A stretch of DNA of 64,000 nucleotides from Antitrichia curtipendula (lineage: Eukaryota; Streptophyta; Bryopsida; Hypnales; Leucodontaceae). The DNA lies in NCBI GenBank assembly GCA_951230915.1, contig OX579637.1, positions 24,366,001-24,430,000 of the forward strand, written 5' to 3'. A model generated the notes under the pieces. The model had not been told where the DNA came from. It saw only the letters and a list, made by a program, of their open reading frames with translations, and ran no database searches. Both the position numbers and the translations under genes were made by a program. Positions 29,633-63,620 of this stretch are shown in pieces; the first letter of the stretch is position 1; each line of letters starts with the position of its first letter.

Positions 29633-29658
29633 ACGAGCTAGCTGTGGGGTTGCCCTTA

Positions 29659-42410: not shown

Positions 42411-43549
42411 AAGGAGGATTCGGCCCCATCTCAAGCATCAGACAACCCAGCCAGTACTCAGGCAACCTAGTCGTGCTCAAGCAACCCATCCAATACTCAG
42501 CAGTTCGGCTACCCTCTTGATTGTTGCTTTGTCCTTGGCCCTCTGACTGTTGATTTGTTATGGCCCCCTTCCGATTGCTACTTTGTTCTAGCCTTCAGGT
42601 TGTTTGATGTTTTGAAATTTTTCCAATGCTAATCTTGCGTCTTTGGACCTTTGGAACAATAATTTTGACTTTTCAAGAATGTAAATTTTGAGACAATTAT
42701 TAAAACATGACTTGGAAGGCTTGGCACTCATTTCCAAATATTAGTGTAAATCACTACCTTGGAGTTGGGATGCTATGTCTACACTTACAAAATGTTTTGT
42801 CATTAGGATTTTTTGATACTGAATTTGGACTTCAAGAATTGATATTTGAAACAAAACTTGGTGATATGGCTAAACACTATATTTTTGAGGAATTTTCTAA
42901 GATTCTATGATTCAAAGCTTCACTGTGATTTTGATAAGCTTTCTAAATTTTTAAAACAAGTCTAAAACACAAAAGTCATAACTTCGCCTTGTTTTTGGAA
43001 ACACATCAAATTCTAAGACAATTTCTAACACATGCGGTCAAAGCTCCGCGGTGATTTTTGTCATATACTAAATTCTAAAATAATTTCTAACACATGGGAT
43101 CAAAGCTCCATTGTCCTGGATGGGACAAGTGAAATAAACGTGTTAGTACAACACCAACTACCATATGTTAGTATAACTTGTTAGTATAACAACTATCCAC
43201 AAGACGAGTTAGTACAAAAATTTAGTACAAAATTATAATCATAATAAGCTAAAGACCTTCTCCAAGTAGCATTGCCATTCATAAGGGAAGAATCTTCTAG
43301 GATTTGTACAAAATCCACAAGTCCTAAACAAGAACTTGAAGGAACAACAACAACACCAAAAACTATAGTTAGTACAACCAACATACTACCAAAATTTTGC
43401 TAAAAGTTCAAAACAAGTACAAAAACAACAAATAAGACTTAAAGGGACCCCAATGTCCTTCAAGGCTCACAAAATAACAGCAAAAAGAGCTTGAAATGCT
43501 CCAAAAACAACACGTTACAACTTTGGCTTCAAAATGACCAAATGCCATA
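42411..43549 (-). repeat. Middle part of major repeat copy 4 (-)
   Basis: Its reverse complement matches 12560-13600: AAGTTGTAACGTG...GGAGCATTTCAAGCTCTTT, GTTGTACTAACACGTTTATTTCACTTGTCCCAT, the GCGGAGCTTTGA series and the GC-rich CAGCC block (42420-42600). It ends exactly where the large inverted-repeat element begins at 43550. The continuation of the copy is found on the far side, from 62611. Confidence 0.7.
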
Positions 43550-43567
43550 TTTAACTACTTTTGGACT
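43550..43567 (+). repeat. Left terminal inverted repeat
   Basis: TTTAACTACTTTTGGACT pairs perfectly with 62593-62610. A further GTTCAAAAGTAAT word follows within about 25 bp, like the second AAAGTCCAAAATT word inside the right end, hinting at subterminal repeats. Confidence 0.8.
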
Positions 43568-43599
43568 ATTGAAAGTTCAAAAGTAATAAAATGCAAAAA

Positions 43600-44025
43600 T
43601 CTCCCGATGCATGGTGGTAGGCAATACATCGCCGGGAGGTTTCCGGTTTCAATGAAGTTCATTTATCAAAGGGTGTTGCAAGGCTCCTAGACGTCATTCA
43701 AGCATACGAACATGCATATGTAGTCTTCGAATGGATGCATGGTGTTTGGCAAGGCATCAGGACAAATCTAGATATACAGAAGTTCATTTTTCTAAGGGTT
43801 TCACATGCTCTCAAGAAGTCAACTGAAGCACACAAACATGCATCTCAAGATATATATGAAATGTGAATATGGATCAGTAAATAGCCTTTCATGCATGGTG
43901 ATAGGCATAACATCAGAAGATATCCATATACATTGAAGTTCATTTTGTTAAAGGTGCTGCAAGGCCTCCGAGAGGTGAATTGAAGCACATAAACATGCAT
44001 CTTAGGGACAATAGAAACTTTGAAT
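43600..44025 (+). repeat. Three tandem units of about 125-158 bp at the left end
   Basis: Each unit starts GATGCATGGTG(G/T)T.GGCA, then ACATC.G, then GAAGTTCATTT.T.AAAGGGT, then CAAGG.T.C.AG..GT.A..TGAAGCA, then AACATGCAT. Starts are about 43608, 43734 and 43892. The first unit begins with a half palindrome (ATCTCCCGATG). No coding sequence is seen. Confidence 0.7.
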
Positions 44026-44699
44026 GATGAATTAAATGCTACCAGTTGGAATATAGGTTCCAACTAGTAGGAATTGAATTACCTACAAATCTCTTGATGA
44101 AGTGCAAAACCTGTAAGGTGAGCGAGTCCATTTTGTATACCCTATACTTCATTGTCTTAGGCATCTTATGTCCTACGAAATGTAAAAACAGGTGTTTGTT
44201 GCGTGAACAACAAATGTGGAAATTTAGCCAGAATGTATATGAACATAGTACCTAGTAACATAAATATTGAAGAGCAAGGAGAAAGCAAATAACAACAAAA
44301 CAATGTCAACGACAATGATAAAAGAGAAATGAAAACAAATAATAAGAATAGTAACTATCCAGAAGAAAATTGTCTTGCAAAATTCTAATAACCGCTTAGA
44401 AGATCAATACAAGAAAAGAAAGAATAGAAAAGCTAACGGAGCGTGGGCAATTCCTACAACTATGGTATGCAATTTGAAGGTTGCCCTTGAGGAGAAACAA
44501 GAACATCACATTTTGTTGTTCATTGATAAAATGAAGGCATCCCACGCATGGCAGCTTCCACAACAACCACTACTAACTAAACTATAAGACATGCACGAAC
44601 CATTTACCAAGGAAACGAACGCTGCCATTGTCAAGAGGAACCAAAGAAATCATCGGGATATATCCCGATAGCCGTGTTGAGCCATGACACATTAGACCA

Positions 44700-47600
44700 T
44701 CAGGGGTTGACCTTGTTTGACCTATTCAAAGTTGCATGGGCAGCTTCTCTACTCTTCTGAGGAATAGTACGTGATTTTGGGTTAACTGTTTTGGACCAAT
44801 TCGTGTATAATACACAAGAAGCGTCCACCCAAGTGGGAGGCGTATTTTGCACTACCCATTTCCTGTACCAACAATTCCGATACCTCAATTCCAAGGTACT
44901 TTCAAAGTTATTTGGCTAATATTGGAGCAGGAACTTCCCGTTATTCTCGTGCCTTGCCTCTCTGCAAACGGCCAACAATGCTCTTCCTTGCCAAACAGCA
45001 CAAACTGTGGGATCTTTAGGTCTGAGAAGAACCCAAGAACCTGGGCAAATATCAACCCAAAGATTGAAGCTTTCCCTTGGCGCCTCATTTGCGGGTCCGC
45101 AATAAGGTTCCAATTCCTCTTCCTCAAGAATCATGTCGACAAGATTGATCGTCAAGCCCTGAGAAGATGGTTCTACTCTCCAATTGTACTTTGGCCAGAA
45201 GCCTTCAACCAATTCTGAAGGACAGTCGAGAAGGGGCTCCTTCAGCTCATGCAACACGTGTTTCCAGTACTCCATGTATACAGCAAAGGCGGTCGCAAAT
45301 CCCTCACATTTGGACATTCCGTTTGCCCAGTACTCAAGGTACTTCTCAGTTCCTAATAGAATCAAACCCTTGCTCAAGGTTGCTTTCTGTGTCGCTTCCA
45401 CAGCTCTCTCTTGATTTCCTATGGCTTTCGGAACTTCACTGTCCTACATAAGCTTGAAAGGAATAGGTTGAGGGCAACCCCGAAGGAGCTTTGGACGACC
45501 CACGCGATCTTTCTTCCACAAGCATCGAGAAGGTCTATCAGATGGAAGCCACTGTGAATCAACTGCCGACTTCTTATACTTCATGACGGGGACTCCATCA
45601 CTATCCACGTAGAATTGGAAGAGGTGCATTTACCCAAACCAATTAGTTTTGCCATACCACTGCACAAATAACCCTTTAGAAACGACTTGAAATCAGCAAC
45701 CTCTTGGATGATTTCCGGCATGAATGACAATTCCTAGGACTCCATGAAAGCTTTCATAAGATCCGCGACAACAAATTAAGTATAGGTGGCTGAAATCTAT
45801 TAGCTTTTGATAGGTGGCTGAAATACGCATCAATGTCCTCATGCGTATGTCCCACTAGTAGAAAACTGACCTGAATTTCCTTAAACACTCCTCGTGCAAT
45901 AAGCAAAGACAAGAATGCCATTAGATATTGGTTCTTGTTATCCTTGGCGGAGTTGTCAGGCTGAAGATAGAGATTCTTAGGAAGGGGGCGAGATCCACGT
46001 CGGGCTGACTCTAGAATCAATTTCAAAGCGTCCATACACCTAGATTTTCCTCTAAGTAGCGCGTCAAACATTGCATTTGTAGACGGATACGGGAAGAGTT
46101 CGCCCGTCTCCCGAATTGGTGGACCTTCAAGCCGCCAAAGCAGTTTGGCTAACGATGAAATGGTGAAGTTCGATTCGCCTGGTCAACACGCTGGTGCATA
46201 AGGGGCATATGCACCGTCGGCATGACCATGAGCCACCATTCCTATTACACTCATGGAAAGCTAACCCAAACCTTTTGTGGCCTTTGTTGTCACCCGAATT
46301 CTTGGAAGAGCAGTCTTCCTCGTATCCATCTTGTCATGAATAATGCACAATATATCATGAGGGTTTCTTTTTGATCCTCATGCCACGAGGCGTACAAATG
46401 ACAACACGATGCTTGATGGTTATGATGTTCAGTACTCTGCTTCACAAACTCCAAGAAGTCCAAACTTTCTTTAGATGACTTCAAAATGAACTGTTGTAGT
46501 TCATCACACTTCGTACACTTTACGAAAGAGCTTCTGAAAGGCTTGATGGAGACATTGTTGAAGCGCTGTATTTTTATCCTACTGATGGTGGATTGGTTCA
46601 CAGTAGGAAGCCCATACTCCACATTCAACTGCAAGTTCAAAAAACAAAAGCCTAAGCATCAAAGGCAGTGACAGTACAAAAAAGAAAAGACCATCAACAA
46701 CAATCAGAACATTAGTAGTGAAACAAGTGATCTCGCAAAAAAACAAGGGGATATCTCCCACTAAGCGGAAAAATCAAGTGAATCCCAGAGAGAGAGAGAT
46801 ATCGGGATATCTCCCGATAAGATGATACATGAAGTCAAACCCCACAAGAGAAATGTTTCGGGAGATCTCCCAATTACATTGCCCTCCACGAAATCTAGCA
46901 ATGTTCTAGACGAAAGTGATAATGAATTTATAAAAATACTTCATTGGCATCAGCATGAACACGTCTCTAGTTGTTCCCAGAAGGCAGAAACTTCAGTGTG
47001 TCCACTCTTCCGTTTCCAATGCATTGCATTTGGTGTGGCATTTGGTCAGCAATGTTGTCAATGATGGCTTCAATTGTACCAGTGACCTGCACAATTTGAA
47101 GTTGTGGGCGTTTTATCCCTTTGTTTCCATGTGTTGAAGAAACAACGCCTTCCTTGTACTTGTCAATGTACTTGTTAAAGGTTGACTTCGGGATTCCGTG
47201 AATAAGGTACCATGCCGTGGCACAAACTTCCACTCCCTCCAACATAATGTACTTCCGCTTCCTTGTCCAATCAACAATGTGTAGTTGTCCACCAATAACG
47301 ATTCCATACTCTCGATGCTCTTCAAAAGACTTCAAATAAAATCTCTGCCTGACCTTCAACGACTTGTGATGGAGAAAATATTGGCAGCAATGATTGTCAC
47401 AGCACTTCTCCAAACTAACCTTTTGAATTTCAAAGTCCGTAGTTTTGCGTGAGAATAGTGTGTCCTTCTCACGAAGAGAGGGTCGCCGAACAGTGAAGCA
47501 ATAGGCCGCCTTCTTTCTTCCACCTAAATAGGCTAGGGGATCCTGTACATCAGGAAAGGCAGCGAAGAGTTCCACTATATTCTTCAAACCCCGTCCACTA

Positions 47601-48318
47601 GGAAACCAGCACTCCGAAAGGGGCCAACAAGCATGGGACATGATTGCGTCTTGATTACCCACGAAAACATCAAGGACTGTCACACCTACATGGTCCTCAC
47701 CTAGAGTACAGTTCTAAAAGTAATCATCTGCCCGACAGCAACTTATTCGTTCGGAAGATAAAAGCACACCTACGGAATCAAGTCGATGCACCTTTAAACC
47801 GATCCACTCTTCCTAACAAATAAATGGACTTCCGTCTATATGGGGATCCGCAATCACTTCACAACATTGGCAACTCTCCACAACACTGTCCGGTTCACAA
47901 CATCGAATAGTGTCCGAAAACCTCTCTGGCAAGGATAGAGCATTAGATGCTGAGCTTCAACCACTACCAATGAAGGCCGTAAGAGAACAAAGACCTAGGG
48001 CTAGAACGGGATGGGCACACCAAGCCACTCCCCTTGAGGTCGACCTTCTACAATAGACCCTACTCCAACTTCCCCAAATTCTGGAAGGTGAAGCCACACT
48101 ATGTCACCATTAGTCAACAATATATCACGTGCACAAGATTCTTGAGATTCAGCCTCCCCGGTGGATTCACCTATGTATGGGGTGATGGCTTTATCAAACG
48201 ATTCAGAGCACGGCTCCATAGGGTCGGACTCACTGTCCCCAGAAAGCATAATAAAAAATTTGGTAATAGTAAACCTGCAAATGAGAATAAGGCCACCATT
48301 AGTCTGTAAACATATCAA
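44700..48318 (-). pseudogene. DUF7869-type transposase-like gene, several exons, frameshifted
   Basis: Read from 48318 to 44700. An N-terminal acidic segment (48318-48001) comes first. The 47683-46967 segment has a Cys/His cluster (KCCDNHCCQYF) and a STFNKYIDKY helix. Next is an exon from about 46630 after a CTTGCAG acceptor, with FVKCTKCDELQQF, and in a shifted frame IIHDKMDTRKTALPR. Then HGHADGAYAP, LYLQPDNSAKDNKNQ and VSFLLVGHTHEDIDAYFS, the signature series I associate with DUF7869 proteins. The C-terminal part (45629-44700) has WVLLRPKDPTVCAVWQGRAL and YRKWVVQNTPPTWVDAS. In-frame stops (TAG near 44925 and near 46954) and at least one frameshift (about 46360) show it is dead. The spaced acidic residues suggest an RNase-H-like transposase core; this is inference. 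Confidence 0.7.
46738..46880. repeat. Three 20-bp palindromes in an intron of the DUF7869-like gene
   Basis: Copies or near copies of the element's palindrome lie at about 46744-46760 (GGGGATATCTCCC), 46801-46819 (ATCGGGATATCTCCCGAT) and 46857-46876 (TTTCGGGAGATCTCCC). The intron runs from a GTATTT donor near 46943 to a TTGCAG acceptor near 46631 on the minus strand. Confidence 0.7.
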
Positions 48319-48337
48319 TGGAGAATTAACAAGAAGT

Positions 48338-48764
48338 CATTGGGAGATCTCCCGTTGAAAAATTCCAAATATTGACAAAGGGAAGTCATTGGGAGGTATC
48401 TCGATGTACATTCTCTACAATTGACGAAGTAAGCACATTGGGAGATCTCCCAACATAGCTTTTCAAATATTGACAAAGTAAACTCATTGGCAGATCACCC
48501 CATGTTCTTTAGTATTCACAAAAAGAAGGTCAATGAGAGGTATAACGATGTTCTGTTTTTTTAGTATTGACAAAAGAAAGTCATCGGGATATATTCCGAT
48601 GCAAGTTTTCCAGTACTGACAAGTGGAAGGCATTAGAAGAACTTATGATGTCAGTTCTATAGTACTGGTGAAATGAAGACATCAGGAGATCTCCCGATGG
48701 CAACAACGGATGACATAACGATGAGTATGTCAACTAGATCATGCTATTGGGATATTTCTCAATG
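48338..48764. repeat. Array of eight palindromes, period about 49 bp, plus one outlier
   Basis: Palindromes start at 48338, 48387, 48436, 48484, 48531, 48582, 48631 and 48680, that is every 47-51 bp. A ninth lies at about 48745. Best copies are CATTGGGAGATCTCCCGTTG, CATCGGGATATATTCCGATG and CATCAGGAGATCTCCCGATG. The 29-bp spacers are also alike (TTTTCCAGTACTGACAAGTG, ATTGACAAAGGGAAGT), so the whole 49-bp unit is repeated. The array lies just upstream of the first recognisable segment of the minus-strand gene. Confidence 0.85.
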
Positions 48765-49411
48765 ATTTCAAAGAGACATCCCTCCATGCAAGCAACATTA
48801 AATCCACTACTGACGCGTGATCTGGAATTCCGTAGAATACACTGCATACGTAGAATAAACCAATATTCGTACTGTAATTTCGTATTTGGTACAAGTCATC
48901 AGAGAAGGCACCACGACACCCTGCAACTTCATGCCTCTTCTCAGTGGCGAAATCAAGTGGTTGGGTCTCCACTGTAGTAAATAACCTTATAAACGGTCAC
49001 TACAAATGGCAAGGACAATCAAGTTTACGATAGTAACCTAAATTCATGCACATGGGAGTGGGTTCGCTTGGTAGTAGTTTAGCATTGCGAACGACAATCT
49101 TGATTCACCATATACCACTCATGCAATACGCGAGTGCAGTTTCAACATCGGACTGACAACTTTCAAAGGGCAAAAATTCAGAAGACTACAGAAGGTGACC
49201 TTCCATACTCTACACTCCTAGACTCAATTTCACTATCATTCCTTGTTAACATAGAATTCTATATTCTATTGGGAATATTGAAGTGTCCAAGGAATTTTGC
49301 ATAATGGACGGAGAGGATTTGCATAAGAAATTCATACCTGTACAGAAAAACAAGGATAGGGACGGAAATCTAAGTGCCTCAATTTGCAGGTGCTAACAAG
49401 GAGCAGCAACA

Positions 49412-49471
49412 ATGTCTCCTGACTCCGCAACCGTCCCTGCTCGTTCTCCTCCGCTCCTTAAAAAAAGAAAG
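49412..49471 (+). CDS. Possible first exon with nuclear-localisation-like peptide
   Basis: ATG 49412 opens a 20-codon frame, MSPDSATVPARSPPLLKKRK, that stops exactly at a consensus donor (AAAG then GTTAGT, 49472). The Pro/Ser-rich start and KKRK end look like a nuclear localisation signal. A similar Ser/Pro-then-basic start (WVKSPSRPIKSRRRRKD) is encoded at 53251. Which downstream exon it would join is unknown, and the call rests on the splice site and composition only. Confidence 0.3.
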
Positions 49472-49579
49472 GTTAGTTGGGGGGGGTTGGTTGAATTGCT
49501 CTAGATTTCGGAACTCTTGTTTTCCGCCCCAATTTCGAGAGGGTCCGCCGATCCAACCTCTTGACTTTCACGTGCACTA

Positions 49580-50240
49580 CTGAAGGTGTGCAGCACTGTG
49601 TCCAAGGCAGATCTGAAGATGCGGTCTTCTTTACAAATGTTCATTGTTTCTTAGACGCCGTGCTTCACTGACTGCAGAAATGCTGCGCGTGTGTAGCATC
49701 CCTAGAATTTTGAGCCCTTCCGAGAACTTTGACAAGATACGTGTGTACCTTCAATTCAAATCTGCACTGGATCATTCGAACCCGCACCACTAGGTCTTCA
49801 ACGGGGTACGTGCGGCCTGCAAGTTCAAATCTTCAACGAATTAAGGACTTTTCCGCAGCATTCACTACGGATATCCCCGGTCTTTTCCCCCTCTTTTTTG
49901 CAGCATTCACTGCAGATATCCCCGGTCCGTTCCCTCTCTATGTTTGGGAGTTCTTTAGTTGTAGGATCATGCATTAACTAGCCTATAAGTGCACGCGGTT
50001 CATGAGAGGTGCTCTTCTTGTTTTAATTCTTGTTTACAAATGTATGACTGCAGTTGAAACATCCACGTCCATAAATTGTGATGCTCCAACTGTGGCTACC
50101 GGATTTTTATTATTTTACCCCTCTTTGTAATGATATTCCATTTCTATGTATCCCAAAAAGTCAATAAGACATTGAGGCTCATAATGATTAAACTAAGTCG
50201 AATATTTCACATGTACTTAATTATTTTGTAAAAGTGACCT
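49580..50240. other. Moderately GC-rich non-coding DNA
   Basis: The composition resembles the gene-bearing parts of the element. A 20-bp word (GATATCCCCGGTC) is repeated at about 49870 and 49915 within a 50-bp direct repeat (GCATTCACT(A/G)C(G/A)GATATCCCCGGTC). No convincing gene. Confidence 0.35.
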
Positions 50241-50251
50241 CGGTCAATCTT

Positions 50252-50310
50252 CAGGGTTAAGGGTTTAGGATTTAGGGTTCCATAGAATTTAGGGTTCAAG
50301 AATGAAGATG
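50252..50310 (+). repeat. Degenerate telomere-like TTTAGGG stretch
   Basis: AGGGTTAAGGGTTTAGG, then ATTTAGGGTTCC and ATTTAGGGTTCAAG form a short run of diverged plant telomere-type units. It may be an interstitial telomere remnant or a telo-box-like promoter element. The run is too short to decide. Confidence 0.4.
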
Positions 50311-50499
50311 AATGTTTCAATTCAATGAGTTCAACGAATTCGGGGTTTATGATTCAAGAATTAGGTTTCAAGAAACAAAGGTCATGGTAATCAAAAGTGT
50401 TGTTCTGCAGTTCATATTTTAAAATGAAGGATTAATACTTTTAACCATTTAAATACATTTCTTTCAAAGTTCAGGGTTTTAAATTTCCTAGGGCACACA

Positions 50500-50900
50500 T
50501 TCTTTTTTAATAAATAATTTTTTCATTTGATTTTTGAGCTTCAAAAAATGAATTGTAGATCCTTTAGTTATAAAAGTTTTTGTTCTCGCATTTATTAAGA
50601 AATACCATTCAATCACAACGGTTGGAATGATCTAATGTATAATGAATTGCAGAAAATGAATATTTCTCAAAAACATTGAAAAGTGAAATCAATATAAAGC
50701 ACTTCAAAGTTTATTAATATGGACTAGAAATTCAATGACTATTCTAGAACTATAAGCCTTCATAACTTTTGGTTCATTGTTCAAACTAGAATAAATCAAA
50801 GATTTCAATGTACATACTAAAAAATAAATAGATCTAAGATCGGAATTCAATTTTCCAAAAAAGTGGTGTCTTAAAAATTTGTAAAGATGTAAGACAGTTA
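50500..50900. repeat. Fragment related to the TTAA MITE interior
   Basis: AATTGTAGATCCTTTAG, TTCAAAGTTTATTAATAT.GACTAGAAATTCAATGACTA and CATAACTTTTGGTTCATT...AGAATAAATCAAAGATTTCAATGTA occur in the same order as in 5380-5960. Neither end is recognisable here. This would be a nested older insertion inside the 19-kb element. Confidence 0.4.
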
Positions 50901-50947
50901 CTTTTAGGCCTCCAAATTTAAAAATGTCATTGACTTTCATTGAAAAA

Positions 50948-51275
50948 TGTCCAAACAACTTCATGAAAGTTGCAATTACTTTTGGGCTTTACAATCCACA
51001 ACAATAATCAACTTATTTCCATATGCAATTGATGTATCCAAGAGTTAAAAAAAATAGGGAATATAAGGGGTTTGCAATTTCATAGCCCCTAATTCAAAAC
51101 TCTTATGAACTTTTATCCAAACATGTCCAAAACAACTTCATGCAAGTTGCAATTACTTTTGGGCTTTACAATCCACAACAATAATCAACTTATTTCCATT
51201 TGTAATTGATGTACCTAAGAGTGAAAAAAAATAGGGAATATAAGGGGTCTGTAATTTCATGGCCCTAAATTTGAT
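50948..51275. repeat. Recent tandem duplication, unit 177 bp
   Basis: 50948-51124 is repeated from 51125 (AACTTCATG(A/C)AAGTTGCAATTACTTTTGGGC through AATAGGGAATATAAGGGGT(T/C)TG(C/T)AATTTCAT). The two units differ at only a few positions, so the duplication is much younger than the surrounding decay. Confidence 0.75.
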
Positions 51276-51299
51276 AATGTCATGGACTGTCCTCTTGGA

Positions 51300-53230
51300 T
51301 TTTGGGAGACTTGTTTCTTTTTTATATTTTATGTTTGTGTTGTGGAGTTTCAAGTTAGTAAAGAGTATTAAGGTAGTTTGGTATAGGCAAACATTATTAT
51401 TGCCTTCGTCTTACAAATTTGATCACAGTGCATATTTATTTGCTTTTGGAATTTGGAAAGCCAGATTCATAATGTACACCAAGACATCTTCCAATTGGGC
51501 ATCGGGGGATCTATTCAAATCTCTAGAACATTTAAATTTTAATCGGGGAGTCAATTCAAAACATTGAGAGATGAAAGATCTATATAAGCATTAAGAAATG
51601 CCCCAATCTACATAGACATTGGGAGATCTTCTGATGTTTGTATAGATTATGCTTAGTCTAGAGTTTATAGTATAGTGTAGAAGTAGTTAAATATGCCAAT
51701 TTACCATTCATTTCTTGGTAACGGTTTCTACTCATTTTGTCAATTTTATGTAAATATTGACTAGGATTTTTTTTATTGATGGTTGATTTTTAGGTACTTG
51801 AGTAGGGACACTTGCATCATTTTGGGCCCACATCATAGTGTATGATGTCCAATATATATGCATTGTGGAATACTATTATTGAAAAGATCTTTGCATATAT
51901 TTTTAGAGTGAAGATAGTTAATGTTTAGTGTGAGTAATTAAGGAAATGAAAAAAGTATATTAAACCCTAGACTCCATTTCTTATCCCTTCTCTAATTTCA
52001 AGTGAGGGTCTCACCACTCTAATTTCAAGTGAGCAGCTGATTCAACTTCTTTAATTTGTTGGAGAAGGGGTGCAATTTATATAATTCTATTGATTTTGTC
52101 GTCTACAAAAAAGTAGTTTCAATTGGTTTAGGTGTATGTCCTGCCTATAATTATAAGAAGTGACATTTGAATTCACTAGATTTACTTTTTGTATATGATT
52201 GGTATGCTTCATACGTAGTTGGAGTGAAAAATCGTTCATTTAATTGTACATGTTTGTGAGCCTACAATAAAATGAATACAATGTACTTGGCAATGATGAA
52301 TTGTAGGTATTAGGGTCATTTCCATCATTATGAGCCTACACTGTAGTAGGTGCTATACATTTCACATCAAAAAAAAATTGCAAATATCCACACACATCTT
52401 AATTTTGTAATTACAAATATCCACATACATAATATTCAATATATTGCCCACATGTATGATTGTCTGTGATGATATAGTATGTCATAAATAGAAGCTCACA
52501 TCTTTGCGTATCATGCTTTATAATGATATACTATGTGATTTTCAAAGGCCCATATCATAACCTATGAGGCAACCAAATCTAGTAAACAAACAGGATTCAT
52601 TAATATAGGTTTACAGTCAAAAAAGAAATTCTACAACAAATATTTTTTCCTCCTAGGAAATTAAAAATCCATGAGCGTCTACTGAGTTATGACTTTTCTA
52701 GAAAGCTTCTCTTATTTAATTTGAATTACAATATAATTATTTCTTTCAGGGTAAGAATTACGGTGAAGTGCACCAATAACAACAAAATGGGAGCACGTCC
52801 ATTGTGCTCTAAATTGTAATGCATGTATAGTTATGTTTCCAAAATTGAAGGTGCCCAGGATTAATATAAAGAATTAAATAAAAGGTACACAATGATTTTA
52901 ATTTGGTCGCTAATGGATTCCCTACCGCATGTAGCGTAACAATGTAATTGGCTTACGAAGTGCCCCCATCATTTAAAGAATGTTTTTGTTGTAGTGTCCT
53001 ATACTTAGAAACCAAAACCTTAACCAACTTTATAATATTTAAGGAAATGATAAAGGAATATGTAATTCAAAACCAAGTAATATCCCCAAAGAAGTTTTCC
53101 AATAACTAAGGGATTGATGAAGGAGTGTTGAATTAAGAAGCACACACACAAACTATCCCGTTTACTAATTGTAAGTGAAGAGTAACTCACTAACTTAATT
53201 ATCCCCCGCATAGTAAGTGAAGGTTAACTC
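51300..53230. other. AT-rich stretch inside the element, scattered half palindromes
   Basis: No gene is seen. Diverged palindromes occur near 51500 (CATCGGGGGATCT), 51541 (ATCGGGGAGTC) and 51617-51636 (CATTGGGAGATCTTCTGATG). Confidence 0.4.
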
Positions 53231-53239
53231 TCACTCATG

Positions 53240-54100
53240 ACAATGATGAGTTGATGACCCCTTCAGCTTGGGTCAAGTCACCTTCACGCCCTATCAAATC
53301 ACGCAGGCGGCGCAAAGATTGTTGTCAGGAGTTCTACTTGGCTCTTCCATTGGGTCTCCTCTTCCTCCCGCTGTCCAGCACGTCGGCGGATGCAGTCCAG
53401 TTTTGCTTGGTGGTGCTTCCTGCCCCCCTTGTCGCCTTCACCTGAGTTTCCATGCCTCCGCTTCTTGTTTGTCTCCGGCGCACATAGTGTAGAGATTGTG
53501 GAGTTCCTGTTTAGGATTCCTGCATTTGTGTTGCTGCTTCGTGCATGGTGGGCTTTGCGTTAATGGACATGTTCAACTAGACAGGAGTGCGTGCACTACG
53601 ACATGTTGCGTAGCGCCATTGAAGTAGTAGAGCAATAGAAGAACTTACTGCGCAGCGGCACGGTGACGTAGTTGTTTTTGTTTTCTAATGTAGAAGTGTT
53701 GAAGCGCCGAGAGGAAGCGATGGAGGGAACTTTAGTGGTGCTGCAACGTGGACTTCATTTGGCAGATTTTGATGTATGTGAGGAGGACTCTGTGGGATCG
53801 GACGTTTTGCATGACTTATGTCGCGTGAAGTTGAACAGTAGTGGCCTCGTGGCACAACTCTAGGTACAACTGGGGCGGTGTTGCGTGCTTCAGTCGCGGG
53901 AGGTCTTGGAAAAGCGCGAACTTTGTGGTAGGAGGGACGGATTAGCAAGTCGTGGCATTCCGTTGTGGTACGTGACATTTTCAATGTCTCTCTTCATTTT
54001 GTTTGTTGATAGAGAGTTGAAATCGTGTAGTTTGCATGAGTCTTTGTCATTTTCACTCGGTCACAATGCAAGATAGAGCAGAAATCACTTGTAGGTGTAG
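53240..54100 (+). other. CpG-containing, GC-rich block, possible 5' exons or promoter
   Basis: GC content and CpG frequency jump compared with 50-53 kb. Overlapping frames occur (53251-53445, 53268-53492, 53672-53863). The one starting MMTPSAWVKSPSRPIKSRRRRKD has a basic cluster like the candidate exon at 49412. The stretch lies upstream of the plus-strand genes and may hold their promoter or first exons, but I see no splice-confirmed structure. Confidence 0.3.
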
Positions 54101-54839
54101 TTCATTTGTGTAGTTTGTTTGTGTACTTTGCATGCTTCAGTTGCCACGCCGAGGTGTAGTATAGTGCAAAGAGTAATTTCCAAAGAGTTCGTCAAAGACA
54201 CTGTATGATTCATGTTCTGAGTGTCCATGATGCTCTGGAGCACAGATTTGCATTACAAATGATTTTTTGTGTTGTCTAAATGCAAAAGTTCTGGCTGATA
54301 CACTAGAAAGTGTAGCGTAGAGAATGTATTACAATTAGGTATTAGCATGAAATGGATTTAAGGTAATCTCCAATGCTTCTGTCATAGATGCTAAATGATC
54401 TATGATAGAATTGTGTACCACAAGGTGGTTGTGCACATTGTACATATTTATTATATTCAGTTAATAAAAAACTGAGTGGGCCATGAAATGGATTTGTACT
54501 TTGCAAGAATTTGTGAAGAGTCTGATTCTGGCAATGAGGCATTGTTGATAAACTGCACCATATTGTAAGCGTGGATAATTGTAGCACGTAGTCATGGCGA
54601 ACTCCTCCATACTCGCAAGAATTTAAGCGGAGTGGAATAACCCGTAAGTTTTCAATTCTCTTTCTCTTAGTGTCTGACTACTAACATGAGAAGCAACTGC
54701 AGAGTAGGACAAACAATAAAAATGAATTAGGTGCATAGGTACCTTCCAATAAAAATATGAAGAACCTCGAGTGTAGATCAAGTAGTTCAAGCATTTCCAG
54801 AAAGAGAGACGGATCACATGTATCGGATAATTGTGGTAA

Positions 54840-55200
54840 ATTATTATCGGGAGTTCTCCCGCTGTATATGTTGTGAAGACTGTTGATGGGATCTTTTCAT
54901 TGTAGACTGTTGAAAGAGGATAAAGAAAGACACACACTGTAAGTGGTCATGGATAAGTATTGGAATAATTCCCACTGAAATCTCAGTGGACTGGTGACAA
55001 GGATGCCTCTGGACCATCAGGAGATCTCCCGATGAGTACTTATAGAAGTTCTATTCATTAAATTATCTAAGTGTTCTTTTGGTCATGTCTACAACTTAAG
55101 CAACGGGATAATTTCCGTTAATTCTTGTAAGAAGGAGAGTTGGAATTGGATTTGCAATGAGATTCTACACAAGAACATCATTATATCTCCCAATGAAAAC
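54840..55200. repeat. Cluster of palindromes upstream of the ParB/methyltransferase gene
   Basis: Copies lie at 54844-54863 (TATCGGGAGTTCTCCCGCTG), 54958-54977 (diverged), 55015-55034 (CATCAGGAGATCTCCCGATG), 55101-55120 (CAACGGGATAATTTCCGTTA) and 55177-55196 (CATCATTATATCTCCCAATG). Spacing is irregular, unlike the 48.3-kb array. Confidence 0.7.
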
Positions 55201-55466
55201 ATAGTGGAATAATGAGAAAATGAGGCCGTTGGTCCATCCCGATAGTTAATGGTTGTCATACTGAACCTTTGAAAAGAGTCTAATATTTGATTGTGTGCGA
55301 CATTGGACAGAGATAATTCCTCAAAGGATTTTCCTATTGACTTGTCACCTGTTAGGCTGTACAAGTTCTGCACTCCGTGGTGCACACCTATCAATACAAT
55401 GGCAATAACTTCCCAGAAGCAGTGTTCCGATGTGATGTAAAAGTTACAATATAGGGCCTCGAGTGG

Positions 55467-58400
55467 ATGGACCAATCAGACAAGGCTGTGATCATATTTC
55501 CGAAGTTGGCATTCCGTAAGAAGAGTCACACTACGACGGGCTTGGACGTGATGGAGCTTCAGGGCTTAGATAGCTCCACAGTCTTGGTCATTGTTCAGGA
55601 GAATGTTCCTAGGAAGCAAGAGAAAAGAACATATGGGTTGATCGTGGACTACGCCACTATGGATCTCCAAATGTGCGAGACCTTCATTTGGAAAGGGATG
55701 CTCAACAAAACAGACGGTTCTCACTTCTGGACCTCGCAGGAGATGAAGAATGAGTGGGACATTATTGACAAGAACCGTCGGCAACCAAATGCCTCCACCG
55801 CAACACCTGCAGGCACACCTCCAAAGCTATCTTCAAAGAAGAAGGGGATAAAGCGGAAAGCCATTGCTGAAGCCCCAGGAGATTTTGTGGTGGAAGAAGT
55901 CGACGGAAAGGGAAAAAGCAAGAAGAAGATAAAAGTCGCTCCACTGACCATTCATCGCGCTGTGAACATGACGGATGCCGATATCGCAAAACTGGACACT
56001 AGTGAGGTGAAAGAGATACATAAGCTGTACAACCAGATATTCAAGCCAATGTACAAGTGGGAGAAGAAGCCATTTGCCAATAAAGCGAGTGAACTCTTGC
56101 AAGTCCACTACAAGTTCCTACACCAGGCTCTTCTTAGAAAACTTGTGTATAGAGGAATTGAGGAAGCACGTCTGGCAGGAATTAAAAATCAGATTCTCAT
56201 CGACATCGACGCCAACTACCAATCGGAGAACCGATGCATTACAGTTCTTCCGTTGAAGCGGGGTCCATACGGGCTGGACAAAACGGTGACCCTCTATGAC
56301 TCTTGTCCCCAAATGGAAAGTCTAACTGCCAAATCGCATTACTACATTATTGGTGGTCAGCACACTATTCAAGCGACAAAGAAGCTGACTAAGAACGAAG
56401 ATATCTTGGAGGCTGATAAGGCGAAGGCGTCTACGCTCAATATTATTCCCATGTAGGCACCGTATTCTACCAAGATGACTAAAATGATGCACCTCTCCAA
56501 AGTTCTGAATCAAAACGTTGCTGGTGAGCAGAAAGAGTAGAGCTTCACACAACAACTTGCTCACGCTTGAATGAAGTGGAAGGACATGGGCAGCCCATTG
56601 CCATCATATGGAGGAAAAATGCATTCACAAGCGTATAATGTAAATTCAACTTTCCGAATATGTTAATTCTTCTTCAACATGTCCTTTTTGTCTTGTTTAT
56701 AAAAGTCATCGAGATAACTCCCGATGTGCTCCCTATCGGGAGATATCTCGATGTCCATCATTCTCTAATTACCCTCCCACTTGACAACAGAATATCTCTC
56801 AATGTCGACTCTATTTTATGAAACATCCCATTTAGCGGGAACTATCCCGATGTTTATCAGTGAAATTGCAAATGGACAATCAATGGAAAATATCCCGATG
56901 GTTTGTAGATGACACTCGGCTTGGTCATTACCTCCACAATTAACAGTGTGAGTTTTCCTGTGCAGGATTTCTATTCGGTAATGTCCACCATCTTATGGGA
57001 TTCAAGAATCCTGACTCTGCGGATTTGAAAATTCTACTTCTATTCATGAAGAAGGACGAAGATGTGGACCGATGGATCCAGATTGCCAAAGACTTCCTGA
57101 GCCACAAGTTCCCTGACGGTAATGGACCCAAATCGAAGGGCAAGTGTAAACCATTGTCCTACACTGACTTCAAGCCCTTATACGGACTTGGAGATGAGGA
57201 CCTGAACTACTTGGCGGGACAAGTGGAGAAGGAAATAATGTGCATGAAGAAGACGACTCTGAACATCAATTTGTTTAGGAATGCATTGATTCCAATCAGT
57301 GTGGCAGCAGGCCGAAAGAAGAAGGTGAGGGCCATGAAGAACAAGTTCATGTGCCACTACGATTGTCACCCGCTTCCAAGCAAGAAGCCCGAATACATTC
57401 CATACACGGCTGCGGAGTGGGAGGAATTTGCGGAAGAGAAGAAAATCACCCGGAAACAATTTGAATGGTGGGTGGATAAGAGTATGGCCACGGAACTAGA
57501 GAGGGAGTGGATGGAGGGGCGAACTAAAGCCCTCAACAAGACATGTGACCCAGACATGTGTCCGGACGCTGTCAAGACAATGTGGCAGTCGTATATGAAT
57601 TCCCATGCAGAAGAGGTGGAGGTTGCCATATCAAAGGTATTGAAAACGGAATACCTCTGCAAAATCATGGACAATAGAAGCTGGGACATTACAAAGATTC
57701 TGACTGAAGCTTTCGTCATGGCGTGGTGAAGCAAGGTCCCACATGTACTTCTAGTTCTTTTTTGAAGTCACAAGTGCCGGAGGCCATGCAAAACTCTTGG
57801 AGCATCACAAGTTGAAGCTTCTATTCAATGCTCTGGAGTACAAGGATGCTGCAGGACGCATTTTGAGAGCCCGTTCACATGCAATTCTCATAACAGCTGC
57901 TGCAGGATTTCACGCTGTATTGACACACTTGCAAAGGCGTTTTGAGGAGAGTAAGGTCCACATTTGGGACTGGCATGTAATCTATTACAATTCGGACAAG
58001 GTAGATGGCTTTCCCAAACCGGTAGCCAACACACATTACACCATGTACTTAGTCTTTCTTTTTGCCTATAATGAGGACCACGGGTCTACGAGCAACTTCC
58101 ACAGCTTCTTCCCGGGCAGACAGGAGATATTTGTCGTATATTTTCCAGGGAATGGGACGAAGTGGACACTTTGTACAGGCGCCCAATGATGCCTTAGTTT
58201 TTGATCGCCGCTACGGTTCACATATTCGGTGGTCATCTCAGCGACAATATGGTTATTGTGAATGTGAACGGCGGTCCAGAGTTCACATCTATTGGACTGG
58301 TGAGCTCATTTTCATTGATTTTTCAGGACTTGCATAGTGTCAACCACTTTTAAAGTCATTGCCTTCTGCTTGTTGGGTTTGTTTAGGTTACCAATAATAA

Positions 58401-58637
58401 GGTACTTGAAGTTGTCTTTGATACGGAGACATAATCAAAGTCAAAGACTGTTGCCAAGCAGATTTGGGACCAACTGCACATTCAACCGAATCCTGAAGAA
58501 GATGAGAACGAAGCCGCAGATGACCACCATGTAGGGAACGTGGATGATGTTGCGAATGATTCTCTGGGACAAACGTCGCGAAATAACTTGGAGCAGACAG
58601 ATATCGATCGGAATGACGAGGAAGTTGATGATTAGCC
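55467..58637 (+). pseudogene. ParB-like plus DNA-methyltransferase fusion gene, decayed
   Basis: The exon at 55467-56640 has a long Lys-rich linker (KKKGIKRK, KGKSKKKIK), then a ParB/sulfiredoxin-like domain: VLPLKRGPYGLDKTVTLYDS, then YYIIGGQHTIQATKKL in place of the usual G-x-H-R helix start. The same frame runs past stops at 56454, 56538 and 56568. After an intron (to CAG at 56964) comes 56965-57729, unrecognised, then TGA and a T-run frameshift near 57770. The next part reads VHIWDWHVIYYNSD...HYTMYLVFLFAY and, in a third frame, NMVIVNVNGGPEFTSIGL. This continues after an intron (58300-58385) with NNKVLEVVFDTET, resembling the SAM-binding motif of beta-class DNA amino-methyltransferases. 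It ends with an acidic tail at TAG about 58637. ParB-methylase fusions are known from phages and bacteria. A related gene lies at 18.9-22.8 kb. Confidence 0.5.
56700..56905. repeat. Palindromes within the intron of the ParB/methyltransferase gene
   Basis: Copies at 56707-56726 (CATCGAGATAACTCCCGATG), 56734-56753 (TATCGGGAGATATCTCGATG), 56833-56852 (TAGCGGGAACTATCCCGATG) and 56881-56900 (CAATGGAAAATATCCCGATG), plus a weak one near 56787. They lie wholly between the two coding exons. Confidence 0.75.
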
Positions 58638-58751
58638 AATGGAGAAGGATAAACGAGGGGCTCATACCACAGACAGGACGAGAAGTGATTGCAAGGACGG
58701 CGAATCACTGAGTTCGGACATCAGAAAGGTTAGTGACTCACGTGAATCTAA

Positions 58752-58771
58752 CATCGGGAGATCTCCCGTTG
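58752..58771. repeat. Palindrome in intron 1 of the HAD-domain gene
   Basis: CATCGGGAGATCTCCCGTTG, 19 of 20 positions equal to the consensus, lies in the short intron between 58729 and 58802. Confidence 0.85.
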
Positions 58772-59334
58772 ACTATTCTACATCGCATTTGATTACTTTC
58801 AGAAATAGAGGATATCTGACTTGCTCTGCCTACAAGATAAGTCCCCAACGCCAGTGCTGCCTCTGGATGACTTGGTTCATTCATCTTCAAGAGGTGGCGC
58901 ACGTAGTGGAATGTCTAGAGAGGGACATAGAAAAGTGAAGTCGCGATTGGTCAAGGGAAAGAAGGGTTCTCAATCGACTCCGGTAAAGGATTTGACAGGT
59001 TGGCGAAAGGAGTTGAGGACAAAGCGCAGACTGGATATCAACTTAAGTAATTCTTACTTGCCTGACAGCCTTGTAAATTCTGAAGCAAACCTTGGAGGGA
59101 ATGCAAGCCCAGTCGGGTCCTCCCTAAAACCGTCGAGGGTACATGTTGCTGCATTTGTGAATCCAAAAGCTTGCAATGCAGCATCCGTTCTTTTGTCATG
59201 TTCTACAATATGTGTTTCTGCTTCTGTGTTGGCATCTGACATTGCGAGATTGCCTGAGAGGAAGGACGCATTTGAGACCCTAAATCGTCATTCTGTTGTT
59301 GAAGATCTCGTGCGAGAGGAGCACCGCAGCGATG

Positions 59335-59438
59335 CAACGGGAGATCTCCCCATGCCTACTCCCAAGGTTTGCACTCTTGGTCCTCAAGGGGTCGAGACGG
59401 CGGAGCCATATATTACTCCATCGGGAAATATCCCAATG
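59335..59438 (+). repeat. Two palindromes inside the HAD-gene coding exon
   Basis: CAACGGGAGATCTCCCCATG (59335-59354) and CATCGGGAAATATCCCAATG (59419-59438) lie in frame and encode ATGDLPM and PSGNIPM, so the DNA repeat also makes a short peptide repeat. A third, weaker match (AAAAGATCTCTCGTTG) near 59505 gives AKDLSL. Confidence 0.75.
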
Positions 59439-60716
59439 CCTGTTGATCATGATGGGACGCCTTGCTCAGTAGTGGCAGAGAATGAAAATCTGGAATGTGC
59501 TTCAGCAAAAGATCTCTCGTTGCTCAGACCCAAGATGTTACCCCGGAGGCGAAAATGCCTAACAACATTCTTGACGATACCTTAGCGGACTTGAAACAGA
59601 TGAGTCTGGACGCAAGCACTCCCAAGTTGAATCCACTGCTATTGGTCCAACATTCTGGACTTATGTATGTAGACAGGCTCGCTGTCAAGACTAGGTTTAA
59701 GGATCTAGTTGATTTTCCGAGTTTTCATGTTCACCAATCGCTAGATTTGGGGAGTCGCCGCTCCTCAAAAGTCATGACCGCGTGGGAGGCGCACCGTTCT
59801 TTGTACCATGACATTCTTCAGATTGCTTTGGACCATGGATTGCAGGGAATAGAGGACTTTCGCATAGAACATGAAGCCCTTTTGCCTAGGAAGGTTGTCA
59901 ATGTTCAAAAGACTCGGACTGAAGAGAATGTCATCAAAGGTACTTTAAATGATAGTCTACATGATTCAAGGTGTTTCATTCAGTCCATTAGGCTTTTGTA
60001 TGGATTCATTTCTGACTATATTATGCTCTAATTTATTGTAGATTGTGTTGGACCCTTGACAATGCAACCGCGGACACTGGAAAAGATAGCGCAGCGACAG
60101 TATACAGTCGTGCTTGACTTGAATGGAGTTCTTCTTCACATGTCCTATATCCGTAATGAAGTCTATGTTGAGCTTTGCCCAAGTGTCACGAGTTTTCTGA
60201 ATTGGCTGCGTGGTAAAGCAGAAGTTGCTTTCTGGAGTAGTGTAACTCCAAAGAACCTCGACAAGTTGTTGGACACTGTATTTGGAATTGTTCTTTTGGC
60301 CGTGGAGATGTTATTTGTCTAGCTCAAGGGGCATGCACAATGTCCACGTACAGGGCTCCAACTGCATCGAATAAGCCGGTCTTTCTGAAAGAACTGGGAA
60401 CATTTGCACGCCTTGCCGGTTTATCTAGTTTTGATAACATTCTTCTAATTGATGATAGTCCACTAAAAAAACTCTTGAATGATCCACACAGTGTTGTTTT
60501 CCCTCAGTCCTTCTGCGGAAAAACGGATGACAACTTCCTACTTATGCACATGATGTCGTGGCTTGATGGCCTCTTCTTGTCTAATGACGCAGTGCCAGTG
60601 TATGTGAGGAATAATCTTCTTTCTGGCGGACAGGATCCAGTGGACCCCCTATCCAGTGAAGGCTTCGGAATCATGTCAGGAATAGTGTGTGGTTGATTCA
60701 TGTGTACATTAGGCTT

Positions 60717-60736
60717 CATCAGGAGTTCTCCCGATA
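60717..60736. repeat. Palindrome just after the HAD gene stop
   Basis: CATCAGGAGTTCTCCCGATA lies about 20 bp past the stop codon at 60696-60698. The region from here to 61240 shows no gene. Confidence 0.7.
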
Positions 60737-61247
60737 CTGAATACGGCGTTTCACTTTTATCAGACTATATATTACCTTGAGTGTAGATTGTAATTTTCTT
60801 TGTAATTGCACCCATAAATTGTAGAACAGACATGTTTTTCAACTTGTAAATGGTTTTCAAGCTCAAACATTATTGAATACGGGTTATTAGTTAACTGGTA
60901 CCTTGAGAGAACTCATTGTAAATGCATAGTTGATATGTTTTTTGAATGATTCCACACTTTTACTCAGTGTGATTTCTATGTAGTTGTGGTCCTTGGTTTC
61001 GTGTTTCATTTCTATTTTTGTGTGGACATTTTGCCCGTGCACGTCATGCGTTACCTGTCCCTTGCATTTTTTTTAAATATGTACTTGGCAAAGAGTAACC
61101 ACAATTAACGTGTAATTAATAGTTTATCTCTAAGACATTGCGTATGAGGAATGCGGAGTTTGGTCTTTTTTCAAGTAGCGCACTGATATGGATAGGCTAA
61201 CTCCTATGTCTTTGATATCCAATTTCTAGTGATGTAATGCTTTATTT

Positions 61248-61495
61248 GTAGATCTCCCATTGCATAGGGGTTCTTAGGAAACTGCTTCTTCATTGTAAGT
61301 GTATCAGGAGATCTTCTGCTGTTTAAAGGTTCTCAGTAAAGTGAGTACTCTTTAGAATAACATCGGGATACCTCCCCCTTGCTTAAGGCTTCTTTATAGT
61401 AACTTCACCAAGTGATCTCTCTTTATTTTAAGGTTCTTAGCAAAGTGAGTTTTCTTTGGAACAATACCAGGATTTCTCCTGTTGTTTGATGGTTC
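61248..61495. repeat. Second palindrome array, period about 50-58 bp, diverged
   Basis: Units start near 61248 (AGATCTCCCATTGC), 61304 (TATCAGGAGATCTTCTGCTG), 61360 (CATCGGGATACCTCCCCCTT), 61409 and 61466 (ACCAGGATTTCTCCTGTTG). Shared spacers are TTTAAAGGTTCT.AG.AAAGTGAGT..TCTTT.GAA.AA. The spacer differs from that of the 48.3-kb array, so the two arrays arose separately around the same palindrome. Confidence 0.65.
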
Positions 61496-61542
61496 TCCTG
61501 TATCTGTTTAATTGACATTCTTGCTGAGTTCTGTTGCTGCAG

Positions 61543-62028
61543 AAGGCGGTTCTTGTTGTTTTGACAGGTGATTTCTGCGTTGAGGGCGGTATTTTGGATC
61601 TTCCTCATGAAGTCGATGTTCCTTCTGGTTTCCGGGGCTTCTTTAAACAATTGGTTGAACAGAATCATTGTGGGTTGTCTTTCTCCATGAATATATTTAC
61701 TTTGACGGAGCTCTTAAGGCGTCTTCTCCTACGAAGAACTTTAAAGGGGTTTCTCTTTTTTGCCAGTGCGGACATTCCTCACAAGAATGATCCTTATCCG
61801 AACCGTGCTGGATTACTGAAGCGTATTTTAGGGAGCTCTAGACAACGAAGCATTCTTTGGAATCAAACAATTGTATTACTTGAGGTAAATCCTCTTAAGT
61901 GGCCACGTTCTTATTTGTTAGGTCCCTCCATACGAGTGAGGGATGATATAGATCCTTTGAAATTAGAAGTCCTGTGTTATGTACGAAAAGAGCTTATTGT
62001 TCCTGGGAAATTGTTTAAGCGTCAGTGA
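61543..62028 (+). CDS. Unrecognised exon, last coding piece of the element
   Basis: An open frame runs to TGA at 62026-62028. It is preceded by a good acceptor (GTTGCTGCAG, ending 61542), so it is probably a 3' exon. The translation has KAVLVVLTGDFC, IPHKNDPYPNRAGLLKRIL, LEVNPLKWPRSYLLGPSI and DDIDPLKLEVLCYVRKEL, which looks conserved rather than random. I do not recognise the family. It lacks internal stops over about 160 residues, unlike its neighbours. It could join the HAD gene upstream (skipping its stop) or belong to a separate gene. Confidence 0.4.
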   Translation, partial: KAVLVVLTGDFCVEGGILDLPHEVDVPSGFRGFFKQLVEQNHCGLSFSMNIFTLTELLRRLLLRRTLKGFLFFASADIPHKNDPYPNRAGLLKRILGSSRQRSILWNQTIVLLEVNPLKWPRSYLLGPSIRVRDDIDPLKLEVLCYVRKELIVPGKLFKRQ

Positions 62029-62538
62029 AGTTCACTTGTGCAGATATTGTTGGAAATGCCTTTATTGTTTTTATGGGCAACTTGTTGAACATTTCCTTCT
62101 TTATCGATATGAATAAAATGTGATGAACCTTACGGACCTTTCAGTGGCTTTGAAGTTTGATTCCACCGTATCCTTATTAGTGCGTATGTTCTCTTATACC
62201 ATATATTTGAATGCGGAGATTACATCGGTAGATTTCTGGATCCTACTTTTGCAGGGAAATACTAATGGGTCAAGCCTTACTTAGTCCTTGTAATAATTTC
62301 AGTTGACAAATAACCATTGGAATCTGGTTCTTGCAACACTTACGATCCCAATGACTTGGATCTACACTACATTGGCAAAACTCCCAATCATTCATCTCAA
62401 TTTCTATGTACAAATAAATGCTCTATGCTTGAAATGTCGTAGTTATTATGTTTCTGGTCTTCTTCTTCTATTTGAATATGGTTGACTTCATTTTGTTTTT
62501 CCCACTTCCATAGGCATTGCGGTCTCTAAATCCGTAAG

Positions 62539-62558
62539 AACGAGAGGTCTCCCGATGA
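62539..62558. repeat. Last palindrome, next to the right end
   Basis: AACGAGAGGTCTCCCGATGA lies 35 bp inside the right inverted repeat, mirroring the ATCTCCCGATG half site 32 bp inside the left one. Confidence 0.65.
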
Positions 62559-62592
62559 ATTCTACCATGACAAAGTCCAAAATTCCTCCTAA

Positions 62593-62610
62593 AGTCCAAA
62601 AGTAGTTAAA
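62593..62610 (-). repeat. Right terminal inverted repeat
   Basis: AGTCCAAAAGTAGTTAAA is the exact reverse complement of 43550-43567. Immediately outside begins retroelement sequence matching 12545-11240 in complement. Confidence 0.8.
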
Positions 62611-63620
62611 TTGGGCATCCAAAAAAGTTCAACTAAATAAACTAATGTGTTACAAAAAAATGGCTAAAAGGAGTCAGTTGAGAGGAAAGGGGGTGCCCCT
62701 TTATACTCTTTCAATGGCATCCACCTCCTTTCATTTCCTCGTGGTAATCTTATCATTTGGGATTTTAATTCTAAATTATCATTTTTGAGTTTCTATGTTG
62801 GACCAATTTCTAATTTTTGGAGATTAACTCCAAATCACAAACAAGTTGCACCATTGACTTTAGAAGGCCATTCTTAGTCAAGTAGAACTTCCCACCCCTT
62901 TTTCCTTCGCCAAAAATACAAAGAACTCTAACGCCAACTTAACAATCAAAAGAGTGAGAATCCCAACTTTTGGAGGTTAACGTTTCTATGAAAAGTAACT
63001 AGCATAGGCTCATTAGTAGGTGTAAGGGAGTAAGAAAAGACCCTGCTATGACTTCAATCCAACTACAGGTGCTCACAATACATTAGTCAACTCCTCGTTT
63101 TGATCTTCAATTTTGTCAATTTTGAAGAATCTTAATATTTTTTATTCTTCTGACTATCAAAATGCCACGAACCTTGTTGGAGTGCATTATTAACAGAAAA
63201 GAAGCTATGCTAATTTTTAGTGAGATTTTATCGCACCCTGGATAATTTCTATTAGTTTTCCATCATAAAATTTGGCGGTTGACCGTTTGGAAAGATATCT
63301 TTAGAATATCAAAAAAATTTGAAATTTTTTATGGAACCTCTCATGGAATTCCACAAAAGATGTACAATTAGGGCAATTTGTAATAAACACGCTATATATG
63401 TACAATTTTTGGGCTTTTATCCTATTTACATACAAAATTTGGATATAATTGAAGGAAAACACTCTATTTAGGTCCAAATGCTATATTGATGTGTGGCATA
63501 CCTAATTTGATTTTACACTCTTTTTGGGATTTTTTGTATATAAAACTTCACTTAAAACTGTACCCCTCCCAAAACAAATCACGAGTTCCAAATGACAAAA
63601 TGGGGACTCACATGTGCGTG
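62611..63620 (-). repeat. Upstream part of major repeat copy 4 (-)
   Basis: Its reverse complement matches 11240-12560: GAGTCCC.., ATAGCATTTGGACCTAAAT, GAGGTTCCATAAAAAATTTC, AACGGTCAACCGCC, GAAGTCATAGCAGGGTCTTTTC and GGCTTTTTGTAACACATTAG. It continues downstream at 43549 after the 19-kb insertion. Confidence 0.65.

Follow-up and report, generated by a model that had tools for sequence, protein, structure and literature searches.

Giant eukaryotic transposons have been reviewed (PMC6431247), and giant KDZ, EnSpm and Sola-1 elements are described from Ectocarpus (PMC12477816). Among the latter, the 21.5-kb DNA transposon Sola1-1_Ec32 carries a ParB and methyltransferase gene opposite the transposase; for the 1104-amino acid (aa) ParB-like product the authors predicted a methyltransferase domain, and they suggested that such ParB-like proteins bind and mark their own transposon (PMC12477816). 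The words phosphatase, palindrom, subterminal and binding site are absent from the main text of that paper. The 64,000-nucleotide stretch of the Antitrichia curtipendula genome analysed here (C5:24366001-24430000, contig OX579637.1; hereafter the window) contains an element of 19,077 bp (43542-62618), which is probably a decayed member of a large cut-and-paste family of giant DNA transposons with helper genes and with palindromes that would mark the element as self. ParB-methyltransferase-like proteins are reportedly also encoded in green and red algal transposons (said to be the subject of Iyer 2011 and Petroll 2025), an accessory gene type like that of the present element, in hosts that are algal. 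By its description, Sola1-1_Ec32 resembles the moss element in giant size and in the ParB-like gene on the strand opposite the transposase, but differs in its methyltransferase domain, for which no library match was obtained here. As Sola1-1_Ec32 is the closest known element, the plan of the moss element is not wholly new, and the view in the first-pass annotation that it matches no known giant element was too strong (PMC12477816).

The exact 18-bp inverted ends reported previously, at 43550-43567 and 62593-62610, are present, but the true boundaries lie farther out, at 43542 and 62618, and are bordered by a target-site duplication that had not been named. The full terminal inverted repeat (TIR) comprises 26 bp with the outer ends ATGCC...GGCAT, and in most of the 30 TIR loci inspected the conserved end extends outward as far as ATGCC. 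The 4-bp length of the duplication was set on copies resembling miniature inverted-repeat transposable elements (MITEs). The termini and the insertion site are as follows:

43538-43541: left target-site duplication, CCAA
43542-43567, plus strand: left TIR, ATGCCATATTTAACTACTTTTGGACT; 39 of the 40 genome matches listed for the left 160 bp start at base 1
62593-62618, minus strand: right TIR, identical to the left at 24 of 26 positions; 38 of the 40 listed matches of the right 160 bp start at base 1
62619-62622: right target-site duplication, CCAA
about 11839-12946, minus strand: uninterrupted counterpart of the flanking retroelement, in another copy, with the insertion point at about 12581-12584

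The flanks of the MITE-like copies show exact 4-bp identity in 15/23 cases, identity over 5 bp or more in 0/23 and no 4-bp match in 8/23, while a 4-mer is common to different copies in 7 of 506 control comparisons. The duplications differ by element, with CCAA in the window, TCAT in a copy on C1, ATTT in a copy on C8 and CTTT in a diverged relative (relative D). A 4-bp target duplication is found across the Sola superfamily (Sola1/2/3), a likeness shared by the 15 MITE-like copies and these four elements; for Sola2, 4-bp duplications are given in PMC3627910. TTAA was ruled out as the target duplication, since the MITE flanks place it within the TIR, which reaches ATGCC. The element is thereby also set apart from piggyBac and Kolobok, which duplicate TTAA, its own duplications being CCAA, TCAT, ATTT, CTTT and others. 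KDZ (Zisupton) elements have an 8-bp duplication, whereas none of the 23 copies has a flank match exceeding 4 bp. CACTA/EnSpm elements have CACTA ends, a 3-bp duplication and protein-bound subterminal repeats; many short repeats are likewise found inside the moss element, but they occur throughout it, and its ATGCC ends and 4-bp duplication exclude it from this group.

The flanks are two halves of one retroelement, as previously proposed: joined at the narrower ends, they give a single BLAST alignment across the junction with 840 of 1,147 columns identical. With the corrected ends, CCAA is single in the counterpart near 12581-12584, as read by eye. The uninterrupted counterpart is present in the window but, being only 71-81% identical to the flanks (two main segments, at 71.5% and 81.2%), represents an uninterrupted relative, a diverged copy elsewhere rather than the empty allele of the same locus. 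Matches of the left flank at 41000-43000 are restricted to parts of other repeat copies.

The 17-bp TIR core, with at most one mismatch, has 931 + 944 = 1,875 matches genome-wide, against 1 + 0 for the reversed pattern, and its abundance is therefore not due to chance. The first-pass annotation had made a family depend on other TIR pairs in the genome; such pairs were found, and comparison of their target duplications, as it had advised, showed the same ends with different 4-bp duplications on C1 and C8. The C1 copy (C1:25148555-25166962) aligns to within 3-6 bp of both element ends and the C8 copy (C8:25089159-25108493) has a segmental alignment spanning exactly 43542 to 62618, so that both are covered from end to end by segments that are 80-91% identical. 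The window and C1 copies differ by 5-24% per 300-bp bin, with a gap at approximately 48,680-49,407. Relative D, on C1, is 23.0 kb long and has an unchanged gene order at lower identity. Inverted ends, a target duplication and whole-unit copies at other sites characterise the element as a giant TIR DNA transposon.

End searches were scored for the best 40 of 517 left and the best 40 of 311 right candidates, and the gene lists comprise the best 150 of 991 transposase, 121 of 405 ParB, 150 of 913 NIF phosphatase-like and 150 of 307 terminal gene matches, so that the counts derived from them are lower bounds. Twenty of the 40 listed left ends pair with a right end at a spacing of 18.4-62.5 kb, and transposase, ParB and NIF matches all occur in 16 of these 20 paired elements and at least two in 20/20. 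The TIR matches also include MITE-like copies of about 240 bp. The TIR places listed (100 of 1,875, on C1 up to 37.5 Mb) form 14 inverted pairs less than 1 kb apart, 11 of which span 223 bp between pattern ends. In this region 4/9 NIF matches have a right end no more than 5 kb away (random mean 0.06) and 3/9 transposase matches have a left end no more than 6 kb away (random mean 0.07), an exact TIR match being absent near 5/9 and 6/9, respectively. As a separate observation, C5 makes up 37.2 of 400.2 Mb (9.3% expected by length) and holds 50/150 of the listed transposase, 41/121 of the ParB and 49/150 of the NIF matches, but 6/150 listed matches of another DUF7869 clade and 0/40 WRKY matches; a sex chromosome, or a gene-poor chromosome of another kind, is a possible identity for it. 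The 40 WRKY matches in the genome indicate a streptophyte host, probably a land plant whose WRKY family is small.

The genes of the element are arranged on both strands:

46931-48333, minus strand: 5' exon of the transposase gene; open over 472 aa in the C1, C4 and C8 copies, two frames and stops here
46264-46655, minus strand: start of the second transposase exon, with paired cysteines and the region of the first catalytic Asp; two frames here
44703-46260, minus strand: catalytic part of the transposase (DUF7869), with an SH3/chromo-barrel-like domain at the C-terminus; interrupted here by stops and frame breaks
55374-56654, plus strand: ParB-motif gene, first exon; the motif reads IIGGQHTV in relatives; four stops in the aligned stretch here, 55455-56456 open
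56998-58359, plus strand: ORF2, with D-x-x-G-F/Y-H and N-V/I-N-G-G-P/A-E/D-F/I-T motifs in relatives
58363-59522, plus strand: low-complexity acidic/disordered stretch, in the same position in relatives
60032-60693, plus strand: NIF/HAD phosphatase-like gene with DLNG as motif I; here the frame is broken near 60280
61528-62028, plus strand: small terminal gene, 166 aa, open here

The window copy is decayed. Relative to the C8 frames, the transposase, ParB and NIF frames are interrupted as listed, and stops are also found in ORF2, in its second part, and in the first part of the acidic stretch. The gene set itself is conserved. Of the 121 listed ParB matches, 80 are accompanied by a divergent transposase, 93 by NIF, 64 by both and 109 by either, leaving 12 with no transposase or NIF match among the matches listed; wrong orientations number 0-2 and random placement gives means of 1.3 and 0.65. 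ParB and transposase lie on opposite strands, and genes, order and orientation are kept across relatives with 41-67% ParB protein identity.

The element also carries a dispersed palindrome. When k-mers of the element were compared with those of the rest of the window, GAGATCTCCC ranked first (12 versus 0), and a search with a 20-mer consensus, allowing at most 6/20 mismatches, identified the following sites:

43590-62557: 33 palindromic sites with the consensus CATCGGGAGATCTCCCGATG
starts 1-11: 43590, 43911, 44651, 46744, 46800, 46856, 48338, 48387, 48436, 48485, 48582
starts 12-22: 48680, 48745, 51617, 54845, 55015, 55176, 56707, 56734, 56785, 56833, 56881
starts 23-33: 58752, 59335, 59419, 59503, 60717, 61243, 61302, 61361, 62223, 62370, 62538

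None of the 33 falls in the 7,156 bp of core coding sequence (from which the acidic stretch is excluded), and one palindrome occurs in the 44.9 kb of the window outside the element. The C8 copy contains 37 sites and relative D 32, of which two are coding. All 21 MITE-like copies shorter than 300 bp have at least one site at no more than 7/20 mismatches (shuffled, 0.3). The loci for this and the selection analysis were hand-picked for divergence and open frames; at no more than five mismatches, five further ParB-gene loci hold 39 sites in 34.1 kb, two of them inside core open reading frames (for L058, a shorter coding interval was used in a later count, which placed one site inside instead of two). 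Sequence from the other DUF7869 clade (28.7 kb), the flanks of TIR loci (54 kb) and shuffles contain none.

The palindrome lies nearly entirely outside core coding sequence and its arms differ by family. With at most one mismatch, CATCGGG arms occur in the window element (7), the C1 (5) and C8 (12) copies, L058 (3), L062 (7) and relative D (2), with 0 in L059, L060 and L061; CATCTGG arms are found in L061 (12), with 0 in the other ten sets, and CATCGTG arms in relative D (5) and L060 (4), with 0 in the other nine, while L059 has five perfect repeats with GACCGTG arms. Allowing 3/14 mismatches, the family arms give 20, 23, 12, 19, 13, 17 and 14 sites, 118 in total, of which three are coding, against 0 in 73.6 kb of control sequence; as the arms were picked from the very sequences counted, this count is partly circular. 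The palindrome is read here as a candidate family-specific recognition site for an element-encoded protein. A dimeric protein, ParB-like or the transposase, would bind the sites along the entire element, marking it and its MITEs as self, which might serve synapsis of the distant ends, keeping the element active, or chemical marking.

The alternative that survives best is that the palindromes are binding sites of the transposase only, like CACTA subterminal repeats, the ParB-motif protein having another role; its chance of being correct is considerable, if somewhat short of even. CACTA-type repeats provide a known model, and the retention of a site in every short MITE-like copy fits a requirement in cis for movement, but the large elements carry sites over their whole length, introns included, and not just near the ends, and there are none in eight sampled loci of the other DUF7869 clade. 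A more specific proposal, ParB/parS-like self-recognition, is tentative and on balance doubtful: the ParB-motif protein would read the palindrome in the element and its MITEs, each family having its own spelling (CATCGGG, CATCTGG, CATCGTG or GACCGTG), by which related families could tell their own DNA apart. As in bacterial ParB-parS, one unit combines a ParB-motif protein with a short palindrome that is dispersed; the moss unit differs in being a plant nuclear transposon known from sequence, with no ParA among the open frames scanned. The palindrome reading is weakened by two features of the window copy, in which perfect 7-6-7 repeats are barely enriched (2 versus 0.9 shuffled) and compensation of deviating arm pairs is rare (9/113).

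The DUF7869-like gene named in the first-pass annotation is supported by a domain match at E 4.4e-31, and its protein models as an RNase H-like transposase, with the conserved acidic positions located on that topology in the predicted structure. The predictions used 30 (A1) and 60 (A2) of 120 listed homologs, 228 having been found. With the first model, of 661 aa, the Foldseek and VIA lists were taken up by matches of the C-terminal SH3-like part, and the core was therefore folded separately. The protein may bind and cut the TIRs as a DDE (or DDD) transposase, possibly steered on chromatin by its chromo-barrel-like domain. Alternatively, it could be a passenger in an element moved by a different transposase, in line with the zero PDB sequence matches and zero Foldseek matches at E <= 0.001 to a proven transposase (alignments of the transposase and of ParB, searched against PDB sequences, likewise yielded nothing usable). 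This is very unlikely, as a DUF7869 match lies inside 19 of the 20 paired elements, the acidic positions are conserved on an RNase H-like topology and it is the sole such gene among the open frames scanned.

Among the best 150 of 991 divergent-transposase matches, 103 have ParB or NIF within 40 kb. The best matches of the generic DUF7869 profile belong to a different clade, in which 4 of 150 listed matches have a ParB match no more than 30 kb away. That clade (e.g. C3:4303204, C3:4306966 and C7:24092562) includes many intact frames of 643 aa and about 1,071 aa, mostly lacking such cargo nearby; it is likely a separate transposon group and perhaps recently active.

For the previously named ParB/methyltransferase gene, the ParB assignment stands by motif alone, the weak profile match at the GGQH motif reaching E 0.04-0.09 only, while the methyltransferase domain found no match in Pfam, NCBIfam, PHROGs or PDB profile searches. 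ORF2 is probably the second exon of this gene and has no family match above the curated cut-off; a Pfam match of ORF2 of relative D to RRS1 (E 5e-4, 20.3 bits against a cut-off of 25, in 1/8 members) was taken as chance. The HAD-phosphatase-like gene was borne out by NIF matches at E 7.3e-6 in the window and 1.4e-14 in the C8 copy, the NIF/FCP1-SCP family profile PF03031 giving E 1.4e-14 and 3.2e-15, above cut-off. Phosphatases of this group have a DxD motif I; here motif I reads DLNG in 6/6 aligned members, the second Asp not being kept, and phosphatase activity is therefore doubtful. A guess from the family name alone would be that the protein acts on RNA polymerase II or on chromatin. The terminal gene is possibly a degenerate HAD relative, an hhalign comparison with the NIF profile giving a suggestive probability of 55 (E 1.2e-4) against 0.1 for the ParB profile control. 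Relative D additionally has a 548-aa, coiled-coil-like open frame (L056:984-2627) with no Pfam match above cut-off; no counterpart was noticed among the window element's open frames. The non-coding middle of the element contains a 177-bp tandem duplication at 50912-51271. Elsewhere in the window, a large inverted repeat (28226-29633; 91% over 583 bp) consists of tandem units of about 177 bp.

The oppositely transcribed genes would be helpers of the element. That they are chance host passengers of the Pack type is highly improbable: the NIF-like gene is similar to TIM50 and to CTD phosphatases of cells, but gene set, order and orientation are constant at the ParB divergence given above and dN/dS is well below 1 where estimable. 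The values of 0.12-0.38 come from 11/15 pairs for NIF, 3/15 for ParB and 4/10 for ORF2 (transposase 0/1), and where measured the codon comparisons indicate that the cargo genes are under purifying selection.

A degraded Maverick/Polinton or other virus-derived element is scarcely plausible. Large size and several genes would fit, and the terminal gene of relative D has one Pfam match to influenza PB2 that stays below threshold (E 0.06; 13.4 bits, cut-off 27) and was taken as chance, but polymerase, capsid and packaging domains are absent above the Pfam cut-off among the open frames scanned, and the duplication is of 4 bp. An assembly artefact or segmental duplication found no support and has a negligible probability, each copy read having its own flanks and its own 4-bp duplication.

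The suggestion of an undescribed family holds for this lineage of giant multi-gene TIR elements within the reach of the searches, although its plan is partly known. The literature searched, which left most subscription journals outside its reach, contained no plant element of this kind and did not name DUF7869, and the word Sola is absent from the portion consulted of PMC7466625, on Physcomitrium (P. patens) transposons. As far as searched, the phosphatase-like gene, the terminal gene and the palindrome of about 20 bp are new to such elements.

The moss family provides a plant counterpart to the giant multi-gene transposons with ParB-type accessory genes reported from algae, and its accessory genes are maintained by selection where measurable. 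The palindrome, present in elements and MITEs in family-dependent form, is a concrete candidate DNA site that is directly testable for binding. Should the sites be self-recognition marks, they would account for the ability of such large elements to join their distant ends or keep their own DNA distinguishable, and for the avoidance of cross-mobilisation among families with near-identical TIRs.

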